Origin: Archaeoglobaceae archaeon
Lineage (GTDB): Archaea > Halobacteriota > Archaeoglobi > Archaeoglobales > Archaeoglobaceae
Assembly: GCA_015520485.1 (NCBI GenBank)
Contig: WAPX01000064.1
Span: 1 to 38,737 of the forward strand
Direction of reading: 5' to 3'
Length of the DNA stretch: 38,737 bases
Shown here: piece after piece, positions 14,542-19,694 of the stretch
Position numbering within the stretch: position 1 is the first letter of the stretch
Layout: every line of letters starts with the position of its first letter
Made by a program: the position numbers and the translations under genes
Notes under the pieces: model-generated
What the model saw: only the letters and a program-made list of their open reading frames with translations
Database searches by the model: none
Told to the model about the DNA's origin: nothing

Positions 14542-15510
14542 TTAACTCATTAAATCCTTCACGCTGTACAGAACCATTATTTCCTCTACATCTGGAAGTT
14601 TTTCGACCTCGTTTTTTACTCTCTCTATGAGCTTTTTCTCGACTGCATGAACCATGAAGTAGATGGGATAGCGCCATGACTCAGGAGTTTTTCTCTCAAC
14701 GAGGTGTGTTATCTCCGGTATTTTTGCGAGCTTTTTTGCGAGTTTTTCGGGTTTATCCGTTTTAATCAGATGCATACCGTTCTCTTTAAAGCCAATCTTT
14801 CTCTCCTTCAAAACCCCGCTGAAATCCCTCACAACACCTTTTTCTATCAGTTCGGAAATCAGACTCACTATTTCCTCCTCCCGGTAACCGTACTTCGCTA
14901 ACCCGAGAAATGGCCTCTTCTCAAATTCGAGTTTTTCGAGCTTGAAGAGAAGATTCTCATCTATTCCGAGTTCCTCCACCTTCGGTACGTCAAACTTCGC
15001 ATTCGAGCTTTCGCTCCACGATATTCCCTTTGTTAGGTCGTACTTAACGTCCATCTTGTAAACCCTTTTCGTCGGAAGCACTATGTAATCCTGCACATTG
15101 CATTTCTCCATTATTTCAGAGGCGAGTTTTTCCACAGCTTCAAAGTTCTCAGCTTTAATCGTGAACCAGATGTTGTACTCGTAGTCTCTCCAGTAGTTGT
15201 GCTTCGGCCTGTACGAGTTTATGATTCTTGCTACCTCTTCAATTCTGCTCTCATCAACCTTTGCTGCAACGAGTGCCGCTCTCTGCTGTCTGGAGAAAGC
15301 CCTGTAGTTCAGATTTGCCCCGTACCTCTTTACCACACCTTTTTTGTGCAGCTCTCTTAACTTTCGAAGGGCGAACTCCTCATTAAGCCCTGTTTTTTCT
15401 GCGAGATCGGAAAGTGGCGTTGTCGTTAGGGGCAGGTCGTACTGTAAGTTCATCAGCAGCTCTACAGTCTGTTCATCAAATTCAGAAGTTGATCCTGATG
15501 AGACTTTCAT
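14542..15510 (-). CDS. ahbAB: Fused AhbA-AhbB siroheme decarboxylase (Lrp-like)
   Basis: 322 residues made of two Lrp/AsnC-like units. The first (1-165) holds an HTH (PLSDLAEKTGLNEEFALRKL) and a ligand domain with HNYWRDYEYNIWFTIKAE. The second (about 170-322) begins FDVPKVEELGIDENLLFKLE and includes a degenerate HTH and ESWRYPIYFMVHAV. AhbA and AhbB normally form a heterodimer that removes two acetate carboxyl groups from siroheme to give 12,18-didecarboxysiroheme in the alternative heme pathway. Here both seem joined. The gene overlaps the upstream precorrin-2 dehydrogenase gene by 29 bases, which fits a siroheme-to-heme operon. It could also act as a regulator. Confidence 0.8.
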   Translation of the reverse strand: MKVSSGSTSEFDEQTVELLMNLQYDLPLTTTPLSDLAEKTGLNEEFALRKLRELHKKGVVKRYGANLNYRAFSRQQRAALVAAKVDESRIEEVARIINSYRPKHNYWRDYEYNIWFTIKAENFEAVEKLASEIMEKCNVQDYIVLPTKRVYKMDVKYDLTKGISWSESSNAKFDVPKVEELGIDENLLFKLEKLEFEKRPFLGLAKYGYREEEIVSLISELIEKGVVRDFSGVLKERKIGFKENGMHLIKTDKPEKLAKKLAKIPEITHLVERKTPESWRYPIYFMVHAVEKKLIERVKNEVEKLPDVEEIMVLYSVKDLMS

Positions 15511-16183
15511 CTATCTTCCTCCTTCCGGAGACGTAATCCTCAACAAGCTTTTCTACGAGCTTCTTTGCTCCTTCCACGTCCTCTTTTTTGACAAGCTCTC
15601 TGAATTTGGGATCAGCTGATATTACAAAGTAAAGCTTCATTCTGAGCTGAACGGGAACTCCTTTCTCCTTCATATACTTTTTCAGGTGGTACATCGCCTC
15701 AAGAAGGTAAATCAGTTCTTCATCTTCTTCTATCATCTTTCTTATTGAGTCTCTAACCTTTCTGGCAACGACTCCGCTCTTACCTTCTGTTGTAACTGCA
15801 AACCTTATTCCGTCAACTTCACCCTCAAACGGCACGACTACCTCTGTTTTTTCTGCATCGTTGGCCAAATTAACGAGCGTCCTGTACTTCTTAGAGATTT
15901 TCACGACCTTATCGTTGAGTTCAAGAGGGGGTATAGCAACGGTAACGAGATTCGCCCACGAAATGTTCTCTTCAAGCAGTTCATCATCAAAAGCGTTACC
16001 CTTAACGAGTTCGATCTTTCCTTTTTTTGCGAGCTCTTTGAGCTCCTCGCTGAAATCAAGGCTGAGCACCCTCACGTTTGCTCCTGCACCGAGAAACTTT
16101 TTCGCTCTCGATGTGCCAACTCCTCCGCCACCAATCACAAGGACGTTTTTCCCTTCGAACTCGATGTAAAGAGGAAGTCTCAT
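15482..16183 (-). CDS. Precorrin-2 dehydrogenase / sirohydrochlorin ferrochelatase
   Basis: 233 residues, like the Met8p/CysG N-terminal family. The NAD-binding GGGGVGTSRAKKFLGAGANV is at residues 18-37. The oxidation product sirohydrochlorin is then metallated to siroheme in the bifunctional enzymes; whether this one also inserts iron is not certain. The middle NTEGKSGVVARKVRDSIR region is the usual family pattern. The ATG at 16183 lies about 25 nt after a TATA-like box (aaagtatttctat, RNA sense) in the 43-base gap after the V4R gene, so it probably has its own promoter. It feeds the AhbA-AhbB fusion downstream. Confidence 0.9.
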   Translation of the reverse strand: MRLPLYIEFEGKNVLVIGGGGVGTSRAKKFLGAGANVRVLSLDFSEELKELAKKGKIELVKGNAFDDELLEENISWANLVTVAIPPLELNDKVVKISKKYRTLVNLANDAEKTEVVVPFEGEVDGIRFAVTTEGKSGVVARKVRDSIRKMIEEDEELIYLLEAMYHLKKYMKEKGVPVQLRMKLYFVISADPKFRELVKKEDVEGAKKLVEKLVEDYVSGRRKIDESLIRINF

Positions 16184-16226: not shown

Positions 16227-16802
16227 TCATTCGACAGTTTGAAAAACGAATTCGCACGCATCATCTCCAGTGGCCTGACATTTGATCTCCTCTCCCCTGA
16301 ACTTCTTTGCAAACAATCCTTCAAGTAAACCCCATGTATAACCCAGTAACATCCAGCAAACCGGATGAGATGGCTTCTCTTTGAGTTTGATAAACCCAAT
16401 AGCCTCAAGAGAGTCCTTTACGATTACTCTGAAGCTATCGCCACACTCGCACTTTATTTTTCCCCAGCCAAAGCATTTACCCCATATAGTAATCATGTTC
16501 TTTGCAATCATCCTGGCTTTTTCCTCGTCCATTTTTCCAAACTTCTTTTCGTACCTTCTTCTTATAGCATTTCCGGCAATTTTGCCCCTGTTTTTCGAAG
16601 CGTTGAGTATCAGCCCCTTAGCTGCTCTTCCCACTATTTTCTCCATTTCTATGTAAAGTCCGGCAAGAAAAGTTGCGTATATGCAGCCGAGAGGTATTCT
16701 ACCAAGAAAATTCTTAACTCCATCTTCATGCACGATAAAACTACTATCAAGCTCCTCCTCACTCATTTCGCTTAAATCCTTACTGACCAGTATATCAAAC
16801 AT
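16227..16802 (-). CDS. V4R domain protein
   Basis: 191 residues. The C-terminal 150 residues are a V4R domain, ending with the diagnostic MLLGYTWGLLEGLFAKKF and KCQATGDDACEFVF; other cysteines (KCECGDSF) may help bind a ligand or metal. V4R is a small-molecule-binding domain of bacterial regulators and the likely ancestor of the TRAPP subunit Bet3. There is no HTH here, so it is not a transcription factor by itself. The ATG at 16802 is four bases after the Roadblock stop, with GGTGAT as the binding site; the longer frame to 16847 lies inside the Roadblock gene. Last gene of the ATPase-GTPase-Roadblock operon. Confidence 0.85.
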   Translation of the reverse strand: MFDILVSKDLSEMSEEELDSSFIVHEDGVKNFLGRIPLGCIYATFLAGLYIEMEKIVGRAAKGLILNASKNRGKIAGNAIRRRYEKKFGKMDEEKARMIAKNMITIWGKCFGWGKIKCECGDSFRVIVKDSLEAIGFIKLKEKPSHPVCWMLLGYTWGLLEGLFAKKFRGEEIKCQATGDDACEFVFQTVE

Positions 16803-16806
16803 AAAA

Positions 16807-17172
16807 TCACCCCAGCAACTCCTCAATTTTTTTACTCGCTTTTCCAAGTTGCAGTAAAATTAAGCCTAAGTTTGCTTTGGGAGTTGTCATAACAACAAGC
16901 AAGGCTTTTTCTCCCGCACCCATGGCAACTATTTTGCCACTTGGACTTTCAACCACAACCCTGTCCGGCGTACCTTTTCCAAGTTCGGACATTGCCGTTT
17001 CTGCCGCACCGAGCATTGTGGCACTCATAGCGGCAAAAGCATCTGCATTCACGCTTGAAGATATGTCCGCAGCTATCAGCAAACCATCTCTCGAAACTAT
17101 TGCAGAAGCTTCTACATCTCCTGTTGACTTCATCTCTTTCAAAATATCTTCAAGTTGAGACCTCAGGCTCAT
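16807..17172 (-). CDS. Roadblock/LC7 domain protein
   Basis: 121 residues, a single Roadblock/LC7 domain (LEDILKEMKSTGDVEASAIVSRDG at the start, AMSATMLGAAETAM in the central helix, KALLVVMTTPKANLGLILL near the end). These homodimers bind Ras-like GTPases; MglB, the GTPase-activating protein of MglA, is the known bacterial example. The gene overlaps the end of the GTPase gene by 23 bases and is followed by V4R after four bases. The most direct inference is that it binds and regulates the adjacent GTPase. Confidence 0.92.
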   Translation of the reverse strand: MSLRSQLEDILKEMKSTGDVEASAIVSRDGLLIAADISSSVNADAFAAMSATMLGAAETAMSELGKGTPDRVVVESPSGKIVAMGAGEKALLVVMTTPKANLGLILLQLGKASKKIEELLG

Positions 17173-18331
17173 TTTCTTTCACCCACCAACTACCAGTTAA
17201 CAATTCGAGCAGAGCATCAATAACTTTATAGACTCCGTCCCCTTCTTTCGCAGAAACGGGTATAATCGGAACATCTTCAGGCAAAAACATCTTTTTTCTT
17301 ATCTCCTCTGGAGGTAAAGCATCGGGTAAATCCTGTTTGTTTGCTGCAACAACGTATGGCAATCCGAAATGTGCCACAGCTTCAAGCATCTGCTTTGCCC
17401 TTGGAAAAGTTTCCGGTTTTGTTGAATCGACGACCAGTATAACTCCAAGAGCTTCTCTGCCGAGCATTTTCAGGATTGGATCGAATCTCTCCTGCCCCGG
17501 AGTGCCAAAAAGGTCTATAGAGAAGCCTTTATACTCCAAGTGCCCGTGGTCAAGGGCTACTGTTGTACCGAGTCTGTCAACAGATATCGCCCTCATCGAA
17601 ACTGCATGCACAAAAGTGCTTTTTCCAGCATTGTAAGGTCCGGTAACGAGTATTTTCGGTATGTACGCCCTGACACCACCCGGTTTAACGAGTTTGAAGA
17701 GAATAGCTTTACTCTTTATGTTCTTCCAGTCCACCTTAACAACGCCGTAGTAGTAGCCGAGAATAACACGGTGGTGTACACCGCCAACTCTGATTACAGC
17801 ATTTGAGTTGTTTTTCACGAACTTCTCTATTTCTTCAGGATACGGCCATGATACAAATGTACAGATCAATCTCGACTCTTTTTCCCTTGCAAAATCATAC
17901 CACTCACCGATACACTCTATACTATCTTCTCCACAAACGTCTATTACTGAGGAGACGGGAATTACGACGACATCGAAGTTTTCTATGACTTTTTTCATAA
18001 CTTCGTTTACTTCTTCAATATCAGTTGGGCTGGCGTTGTACTGGCAATTTGAAGGCAACCCTACGTATCCTGAATACAGGTCAACAATGCTGAAGTTTTC
18101 GTAGTTTTCAACATCCCACCCAAACTCGTTGAATTCTCCAATCGCGACTTCCGGAGAATAGGCAATGGTTGTGTAAGCACATTTACAACCCCTCTCGAGG
18201 TTCGTAAACAGTGTTTGCATTGCAAAAACGTTTCCCTCAACCTCTGGATCTATCCAGTATGTCAGAATTTTGCCCTCTGGAATTTCTTCAATAACATCAT
18301 CAAGCACAGGAATGCCCGTAATCACCTTCAT
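17150..18331 (-). CDS. Degenerate KaiC/RecA domain fused to a Ras/Arf-like GTPase
   Basis: 393 residues in two parts. Residues 1-205 look like a KaiC/RecA fold (GIPVLDDVIEEIPEGKILTY, TIAYSPEVAI, NFDVVVIPVSSVI) but the P-loop is gone: WIDPEVEGNVF stands where GxxxxGKT should be. Residues 220-385 are a complete small GTPase: G1 GPYNAGKS 231-238, switch threonines at 256-257, G3 DLFGTPGQ 273-280 with the catalytic Gln, G4 NKQD 331-334 and G5 SAK 360-362. There is no lipidation signal. The stop overlaps the Roadblock start, and its own start overlaps the upstream ATPase by four bases. It may pair with that intact ATPase as an inactive partner; this is inference. Confidence 0.88.
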   Translation of the reverse strand: MKVITGIPVLDDVIEEIPEGKILTYWIDPEVEGNVFAMQTLFTNLERGCKCAYTTIAYSPEVAIGEFNEFGWDVENYENFSIVDLYSGYVGLPSNCQYNASPTDIEEVNEVMKKVIENFDVVVIPVSSVIDVCGEDSIECIGEWYDFAREKESRLICTFVSWPYPEEIEKFVKNNSNAVIRVGGVHHRVILGYYYGVVKVDWKNIKSKAILFKLVKPGGVRAYIPKILVTGPYNAGKSTFVHAVSMRAISVDRLGTTVALDHGHLEYKGFSIDLFGTPGQERFDPILKMLGREALGVILVVDSTKPETFPRAKQMLEAVAHFGLPYVVAANKQDLPDALPPEEIRKKMFLPEDVPIIPVSAKEGDGVYKVIDALLELLTGSWWVKENEPEVST

Positions 18332-18987
18332 ACGACCACCACTACTCTATTTTCTTCAACAACAATTTCCCTCCACTCCGTTTGAGTGAAAGAGCTGACA
18401 AAGCGAATGTACTTTTTTCCGTTCTCTTCTTTAAACTCGATTACGCCGTTAAACAGTTGCTTTAGAGTTGCTATCGTTCTCTCATCGTGCATCCCGTCTT
18501 CAACTATGTAAAATGCAACAGAGCCGGCTACCTTCACTCTACCGGTTAATATGTGTAAAAATCTGAAAACTGTTTGAAGGTTCATGTACATCAGCAGGGT
18601 GGAAAGGGAGTCGAAGATTACAACGATATCCCTTACACCGCTCCTCCAGAAGTCCTCGAAAAACTTGCTTATTTTTGCAGAGATTCCGGTTAAGTCCATT
18701 ACTGTTTCGTACTTTATAGAGTCAGAATCCTTAACATTTCCAACCATCGATTTCGTTACACAGTCTATAATCTTAACGTACTTGTTACTGTAGTCAATAT
18801 CCAGCCATTCCATAAGCGTTTCTGCAGAATCTCTCGTCAAAACGTATATTCCACCGTAACCCTTTCTTATGAACTCCCTGAAAATTGATCTGACGAACAT
18901 GGATTTCCCTGTAAAAGCTGGACCGTACACCATAATGTTTGAGCCTTTTTTTAGCTGGACATCAGGTAAAACCTGACTCATGTTCAT
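18328..18987 (-). CDS. KaiC-like RecA-superfamily ATPase
   Basis: 219 residues from the ATG at 18987 (MNMSQVLPDVQLKKG). Walker A is GPAFTGKS at 22-29 and Walker B is IVVIFDS at 121-127, so ATP binding is likely. It is a single short domain, about half a KaiC, of the type seen in archaeal signalling and the FlaH group. The open frame reaches 19089, but a TATA-like element (gttatatac, about 19010-19018) about 25 nt before 18987 supports the inner, leaderless start. It heads a minus-strand operon with the GTPase fusion, Roadblock and V4R. Confidence 0.85.
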   Translation of the reverse strand: MNMSQVLPDVQLKKGSNIMVYGPAFTGKSMFVRSIFREFIRKGYGGIYVLTRDSAETLMEWLDIDYSNKYVKIIDCVTKSMVGNVKDSDSIKYETVMDLTGISAKISKFFEDFWRSGVRDIVVIFDSLSTLLMYMNLQTVFRFLHILTGRVKVAGSVAFYIVEDGMHDERTIATLKQLFNGVIEFKEENGKKYIRFVSSFTQTEWREIVVEENRVVVVV

Positions 18988-19004: not shown

Positions 19005-19018
19005 CATCGTATATAACG
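19005..19018 (-). promoter_or_regulatory. Promoter of the ATPase-GTPase-Roadblock-V4R operon
   Basis: On the minus strand aacgttatatac forms a TATA-like box centred near 19012, which places the transcription start close to the ATG at 18987. It is the only convincing promoter ahead of the four overlapping or nearly adjacent genes. Confidence 0.45.
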
Positions 19019-19133: not shown

Positions 19134-19694
19134 ATGGAATTCTTAAAAAGACAGATTGAGAGAGCAAACAAAATCGGGAAAAAACTGCTCCTGCAAAGGC
19201 TCATAGACGGGGCAAGTGGAAACATGAGTTTCAGATTTGGCAATCACTTCTACATCACGAAAACAGGAGTTATGTTAGACGAGCTCGACGAAACGTCCTT
19301 TGTCAGAATGGATGTGCTGAGCGATAACTTAAACACTATGGCTTCAAGTGACCAGCTGATTCACAGAGAAGTGTACAGAAAGAGCGACCTTAAAGCTGTT
19401 CTGCACTGTCACGGTGTTTACAACGTCGTCCTCTCGTTTAAAAAGAGCAGCATAATCCCCCTCGACTTAGAAGGCAGGTACTTTCTCGGAGAGGTGAAAG
19501 TCGTCAACTGCAGGTATACTTCCAGAAAAATGGCTGAAATTGTTAGCAAAGAGCTAACGAATAACAGAATAACTGTTGTCAGAGGTCACGGCATTTATGC
19601 CGCTGGAGAAAATCTGGATGAGGCTTACAGGCTTGCAAGCTATCTGGAGCATTCCTGTGAAGTGCTGTGCAAACTGCATAACAGTGATGTGTGA
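19134..19694 (+). CDS. Class II aldolase/adducin family protein
   Basis: 186 residues. GASGNMSFRF (about 23-32) is the phosphate-binding loop, and the zinc site is likely HCHG (His82, His84 region) with the His of RGHGIYA near residue 149. This is the family of fuculose-phosphate and rhamnulose-phosphate aldolases. The archaeal substrate is uncertain; sulfolactate or methylthioribulose type reactions are other options. GGTGGTG precedes the ATG. iorA follows after 58 bases with its own promoter. Confidence 0.85.
   Translation: MEFLKRQIERANKIGKKLLLQRLIDGASGNMSFRFGNHFYITKTGVMLDELDETSFVRMDVLSDNLNTMASSDQLIHREVYRKSDLKAVLHCHGVYNVVLSFKKSSIIPLDLEGRYFLGEVKVVNCRYTSRKMAEIVSKELTNNRITVVRGHGIYAAGENLDEAYRLASYLEHSCEVLCKLHNSDV

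Follow-up and report, generated by a model that had tools for sequence, protein, structure and literature searches.

An archaeal operon linking a KaiC-like::MglA-type GTPase fusion protein to a KaiC-like ATPase, a Roadblock protein and a sensor-type V4R protein

The operon described here lies at positions 16227-18987 of a contig from an Archaeoglobaceae archaeon (WAPX01000064.1, assembly GCA_015520485.1, positions 1-38,737 of the forward strand). We refer to that whole stretch of 38,737 nt as the window. The operon consists of four minus-strand genes, transcribed in the order ATPase, GTPase fusion, Roadblock and V4R:

18328..18987, minus strand: KaiC/RecA-like ATPase (Pfam DUF7504), the first operon gene, 219 amino acids (aa) from the ATG at 18987
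17150..18331, minus strand: KaiC-like::GTPase fusion protein, 393 aa, from Pfam and family alignments
16807..17172, minus strand: Roadblock/LC7 protein, 121 aa, Pfam Robl_LC7
16227..16802, minus strand: V4R sensor-type protein, 191 aa from its ATG, from Pfam and fold

An earlier note on this DNA had described the four genes as overlapping or lying within a few bases of each other, and the coordinates agree: the ATPase and GTPase genes overlap by 4 bp (ATGA), the GTPase and Roadblock genes overlap by 23 bp, and the V4R ATG comes 4 bp after the Roadblock stop. All the proteins score above the Pfam cut-offs: DUF7504 at 91.2 bits (cut-off 27), Robl_LC7 at 63, V4R at 46.4 (cut-off 31), and the GTPase protein against Arf, Ras and KaiC at 53, 42 and 42 bits. 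The KaiC-like part went unnoticed when the second protein was called a Ras/Arf-like GTPase. A G domain is indeed present (Arf/Ras/MMR_HSR1, aa 226-376), but it follows an N-terminal KaiC-like domain (KaiC, aa 4-129), and its G3 motif is of the MglA type. The parts of the fusion are as follows:

17696..18331, minus strand: KaiC-fold domain without a catalytic Walker A, aa 1-212 of the fusion, from the AlphaFold2 (AF2) model
18221..18253, minus strand: degenerate Walker A position IDPEVEGNVFA, aa 27-37
17192..17665, minus strand: G domain, aa 223-380, with G1, G2, G3 and G4 intact
17492..17506, minus strand: G3 motif GTPGQ, aa 276-280, in which the Asp of DxxG has become Gly

In family alignments with 79 homologues, GPxNAGKS/T, the switch I Thr-Thr, FGTPGQ and NKxD hardly vary, and GTPGQ or a close variant of it is retained in most of the homologues. 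Replacement of the conserved G3 Asp is a hallmark of the MglA family (PMC4316618), and it is because the G3 lacks the Asp of DxxG that we label the GTPase as MglA-type. In comparisons to the Protein Data Bank (PDB), MglA is the top match for the part after switch I, and the G3 aligns with the PGQ of MglA; when the G domain is compared in full, Arf-like proteins come out slightly ahead. We regard the Arf resemblance as general and, from the G3 motif in the sequence, assign the GTPase to the MglA type. It is not a single-domain small GTPase as in MglA/MglB systems, being 393 aa long with the KaiC-like domain at its N-terminus.

That domain has a KaiC/RecA fold according to Pfam, the AF2 model and PDB matches alike. 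The fold is confidently modeled (predicted local distance difference test, pLDDT, mostly 74-97 over aa 1-180), and the best PDB match is the KaiC-like ATPase PH0284, with KaiC and FlaH also among the top matches. A Walker A lysine motif is found neither in the window fusion nor in the variants displayed for this position in the 79 homologues, which come from many archaeal lineages; what they retain is a P[GE][VI] remnant and the Phe following it. The loss of Walker A predicts that the domain is catalytically dead. The product of the first gene, in contrast, is a member of DUF7504 with an intact Walker A, GPAFTGKS, and its gene adjoins the fusion gene in 15/15 Archaeoglobales carriers.

The Roadblock/LC7 protein and the V4R protein are each the sole Pfam representative of their family in the window genome. 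Among the nearest solved structures to the Roadblock protein are CvnB5 and also 7yh1 and 7f8m, the last two probably from Asgard archaea.

The full fusion is present in 15 of the 57 Archaeoglobales genomes. All 15 carriers, which cover four genus groups and GTPase identities as low as 61%, have the order ATPase, fusion, Roadblock, V4R, so the arrangement is not a product of chance; each has exactly one Pfam Roadblock, and it is located in the operon. The earlier note had proposed gene-neighborhood conservation as a check, and it came out positively, with this order in the Archaeoglobales and the core triad of ATPase, fusion and Roadblock in other archaea. One carrier, G022 (L016/L057), has a distantly related V4R preceded by a protoglobin gene. 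There (L057:1846-2955), protoglobin and then V4R occupy the slot after Roadblock, and the two frames may once have been one protein. A separate GTPase match in G016 was set aside, as it looks like a contaminating bacterial contig, on a taxonomic guess. Contig L045 (G016:C99) of an Archaeoglobales metagenome assembly encodes a DUF4388-like protein, an MglA-type GTPase, a hydrolase and a V4R-like protein; it is perhaps Chloroflexi contamination, yet it again links a GTPase and V4R.

For the wider distribution, a genome-contig scan gave 326 relatives, of which 80 were kept; most of the genomes are metagenome assemblies. The fusion spans Halobacteriota, Thermoplasmatota, Bathyarchaeia-related lineages, Methanobacteriota, Altiarchaeota and DPANN. 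The 80 relatives include Archaeoglobales, ANME-2 and other Methanosarcinales, Methanoperedenaceae, Alkanophagales, Hydrothermarchaeota, Undinarchaeota, Bathyarchaeota, Hecatellales, Altiarchaeota, Methanobacteriaceae, Thermoplasmata and DPANN. Near full-length fusions occur in at least 37 of 394 sampled genomes of the window's phylum (counted by row), in 35 of 293 around the phylum of locus L113 and in 8 of 349 around that of locus L098, and about 30 further genomes of the window's phylum have a match over the G domain in frames of 390-440 aa. A record labeled Proteobacteria (L107) groups with a Thermoplasmatota-like sample, and it is therefore probably a mislabeled archaeon.

In the neighborhood maps, the core is arranged either as ATPase-fusion-Roadblock or as Roadblock-fusion-ATPase. 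By Pfam hits, 71 of 82 scored fusions, including 56 of the 67 outside the Archaeoglobales, have a same-strand Roadblock gene no more than 1.5 kb away. Where a genome has a single Roadblock listed, it is the neighbor of the fusion in 45/48 cases, in counts that leave out some weakly scoring Roadblocks. The GTPase gene is thus coupled to a Roadblock gene as in MglA/MglB, and here the coupling goes as far as a one-chain fusion. In one genome (L239:4755-6392, minus strand), the KaiC-like domain, the GTPase and Roadblock share a single reading frame. The G domain followed by Roadblock in L239 recalls the eukaryotic Rag GTPases.

The V4R protein was placed by both fold and profile. Its residues of interest fall in one region:

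16254..16358, minus strand: V4R zinc-site region C149, E172, C175, C183, invariant or at least 90% conserved in family alignments A3/A4

The AF2 model has a mean pLDDT of 94, and its 18 top PDB matches are the sensory domains of PoxR, MopR and DmpR, with template modeling (TM) scores of 0.64-0.72, whereas Bet3/TRAPPC3 chains, including the Thorarchaeal TRAPPC3, reach 0.41-0.55. A profile of the V4R family matches MopR (3.6e-15), PoxR, MJ1460 and CapR, and up to E = 10 it matches no TRAPP subunit. The zinc ligands of DmpR are Cys151, Cys177 and Cys185 (PMC7264223). Cys149, Cys175 and Cys183 of the window protein have the same spacing, Glu172 is conserved too, and the three Cys and one Glu, together with the Pfam score, mark the protein as a V4R sensory domain. 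It also has the CWMLLGY motif in common with the PoxR/MopR/DmpR domains. The His/Trp phenol anchors of DmpR and MopR align with aliphatic positions in the archaeal V4R profile, and thus phenol is unlikely and the ligand is probably something else. The suggestion in the earlier note that V4R senses a ligand gains support from the modeled fold, which is nearest to those sensory domains.

The same data bear on the form in which that note had cast the operon, a minimal TRAPP-Rab-like membrane module in which V4R and Roadblock would be the exchange factor for a Rab-type GTPase. The folds of V4R and Bet3 are homologous (PMC2253512), Roadblock is related to longin, V4R-Roadblock linkage recurs, and the L113 operon of Methanomassiliicoccales even holds a true Ras-family GTPase. 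However, the G3 is an MglA-type FGTPGQ rather than the DTAGQ of Rab, and the V4R is of the PoxR/MopR rather than the Bet3/TRAPPC3 type. The third protein is Robl_LC7 and no longin gene lies in the operon, the constant partners are a KaiC-like domain and an ATPase, neither of them a part of TRAPP, and most fusions have no neighboring V4R at all. On the G3 motif, the V4R subtype and the lack of longin we reject membership in the TRAPP-Rab system, and we hold it highly improbable that the operon works as such a module. The more general idea, a switch coupling a small molecule to the GTPase, survives; it is the TRAPP analogy that falls away.

V4R is near the fusion in 15/15 Archaeoglobales versus 4/67 of the other scored fusions, and the maps also place it by the fusion in Nanoarchaeota (L101) and Methanosarcinales (L122, L123, L125). 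With 4/67 outside the Archaeoglobales and these few more loci, V4R is rejected as a constant component of the core. A quick tree of the fusion, with some long branches, needs six label changes for the V4R pairing, which was therefore probably gained or lost several times. V4R is nonetheless found within 1 kb of Roadblock in 25 cases, many of them related Archaeoglobales copies, against about 0.2 expected, and five of these have no fusion nearby. Hence, V4R is accessory to the core, yet its position beside Roadblock is non-random. At L098:7253-8214, the Roadblock frame continues into the start of a XylR_N/V4R-type protein, with the end of V4R in another frame; the break in this possible Roadblock-V4R fusion may reflect either a genuine frameshift or a fault in the assembly. 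L239 supports a direct functional pairing between the GTPase and Roadblock, and L098 one between Roadblock and V4R.

Two features flank the operon in the window:

19011..19016, minus strand: candidate TATA-like box TTATAT, 29 nt 5' of the ATPase ATG, on sequence grounds only
15482..16183, minus strand: precorrin-2 dehydrogenase (CysG N-terminal type), 43 bp downstream of the operon

The upstream neighbor is a divergent gene of the class II aldolase type at 19134. Directly downstream on the operon's strand (14542-16183), the precorrin-2 dehydrogenase gene is followed by one of the siroheme-decarboxylase type. This raises the question of whether V4R is a metabolic passenger serving tetrapyrrole/heme chemistry, transcribed together with precorrin-2 dehydrogenase and the Ahb genes and unrelated to the triad. 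BchJ gave the V4R family its name, the genes after V4R here are of the cysG and ahb types, and a cysG-type gene adjoins the operon in 9/15 Archaeoglobales carriers. The other six, however, keep V4R with no cysG-type gene detected beside it, V4R-Roadblock pairs recur in distant lineages, and the V4R fold is of the sensor type. We therefore consider the passenger explanation unlikely and, since its gene is next to the operon in only 9 of the 15, place precorrin-2 dehydrogenase probably outside the module.

Elsewhere, other genes sit beside the core: protoglobin (L057, L105), PAS (L241, L237) and FIST (L091), and in L113 a Ras-family GTPase gene between Roadblock and V4R. It is mainly these neighbors that lead us to see the core as a hub whose sensors can be exchanged. 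The L113 operon (L113:4471-8672, Methanomassiliicoccales) comprises Roadblock, a true Ras-family GTPase (Pfam Ras 9e-40), V4R, the fusion and two KaiC-like genes beside it, one for a KaiC-like ATPase and another KaiC-like gene. It is closer to the TRAPP-Rab parts list than the window operon is.

An MglA-type G domain with a Roadblock partner, and a KaiC-like domain closely matched by the fold of FlaH, could also point to control of surface motility by type IV pili or archaella, as for MglA/MglB and the archaeal KaiC/FlaH. KaiC-like ATPases and Roadblock proteins (arCOG02603) do occur near archaeal type IV pilus loci (PMC4858521). Against this, no pilus or archaellum genes were recognized around the operon, either in the window itself or in those relatives that were inspected, most neighbors being unannotated, and the sensors and flanking genes vary. 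Control of motility is a minor possibility, although a somewhat better one than the heme passenger.

We favor a cytoplasmic signaling relay running from sensor to Roadblock, GTPase and KaiC-like proteins, with V4R as the sensor of this lineage, and give it a probability of roughly 60%. A hydrophobic or small ligand would bind a V4R dimer, and V4R would contact Roadblock. A Roadblock dimer would bind the G domain in the manner of MglB on MglA and alter its GTP/GDP state. The dead KaiC-like domain would dock the G domain onto the DUF7504 ATPase, and the state of the G domain could then govern how the ATPase works or assembles and, through it, a downstream target. Retention of the core triad in both gene orders and in many archaeal lineages counts for the relay.

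Several observations weigh against it. No output target was found at the operon, and the flanking genes differ by lineage. The protein complex is a prediction from gene linkage and fusions, and the G-domain part of the AF2 model of the fusion, built from 15 close sequences, is of low confidence. The Roadblock protein matches the NCBIfam model of MglB weakly (E 0.038). The Methanomicrobiales-like copies (L244-L256) lack a neighboring Roadblock, and in L248, where it was inspected, the KaiC-like partner ATPase has a degenerate Walker A; thus, the full triad is not essential everywhere. Outside that group, 28 of 72 partner ATPases depart from the strict Walker A pattern used for the check. Such frequent alteration of Walker A, along with strict maintenance of the dead KaiC-like domain, would also suit a scaffold or timer-like ring made of the G domain and both KaiC-like proteins, with Roadblock structural and nucleotide switching secondary. 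We find this improbable, since G1, G2, the G3 Gln, G4 and the switch I Thr are nearly invariant, as for a working GTPase. The L244-L256 fusions are divergent members of the window's phylum, probably Methanomicrobiales; beside them runs a conserved set of other genes, including, by eye, diphthine-synthase-like and flippase-like membrane proteins.

Taken further, the relay might constitute a separate, undescribed archaeal G-protein system, in which a dead KaiC domain permanently tethers an MglA-type GTPase to a KaiC-like ATPase that is active, Roadblock acts as the gate, and the input comes from interchangeable sensors (V4R, protoglobin, PAS, FIST). That proposal is tentative, with odds somewhat below even. 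If true, it would be a distinct route of archaeal signal transduction, and the L113 operon would be a possible glimpse of the first association of Roadblock, V4R and a Ras-type GTPase. The recurrent linkage of V4R, Roadblock and small GTPases as signaling parts in archaea is consistent with an origin in signaling that preceded any part in membrane traffic. Archaeal signaling beyond two-component systems is poorly known, and the module supplies thermostable proteins for tests of the pathway.

Among known systems, TRAPP-Rab and the TRAPPC3, Roadblock and Rab proteins of Asgard archaea have a remote relationship to the operon at the level of folds, between V4R and Bet3 and between Roadblock and longin. 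They differ in GTPase family and V4R subtype, and the window operon has no longin and has KaiC partners instead. In Asgard MK-D1, moreover, the TRAPPC3/Roadblock/Rab genes are generally outside operons (PMC10933270). PoxR, MopR and DmpR share the V4R fold, the CWMLLGY motif and the zinc-site residues, but the window V4R stands alone, with Roadblock/GTPase as its proposed output in place of their sigma-54 AAA+ domain. The actinobacterial conservons (CvnA-D) likewise wire a Roadblock (CvnB) and an MglA-family GTPase (CvnD) to a sensor; their sensor is a histidine kinase, and they have no KaiC-like ATPase.

KaiC-like proteins of archaea, some domains active and others inactivated, were reportedly proposed as signaling hubs joined to varied sensors by Makarova, Galperin and Koonin in 2017 (mBio e01959-17, cited in PMC5847659). 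The operon resembles these hubs in having both an active and an inactivated KaiC-like protein and in its varied sensor domains, and differs in that the inactivated domain carries an MglA-type GTPase paired with Roadblock. The fusion may already be listed in that account, which limits any claim that it is new. In the titles and passages searched for KaiC together with Roadblock or small GTPases, the module is not described, and DUF7504 is not mentioned in the literature searched. Wuichet and Sogaard-Andersen in 2014 built their trees from GTPases shorter than 240 aa, do not mention KaiC and report no conserved neighbors for Group 4 MglA (PMC4316618). The closest likeness is to MglA/MglB of Myxococcus and Thermus and to the archaeal Group 4 MglA, which share the G3 without Asp (xPGQ) and a GTPase gene adjoining a Roadblock gene. 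Unlike in MglA/MglB, the G domain here is fused to a dead KaiC-like domain, and there is a third constant partner, a KaiC-like ATPase.

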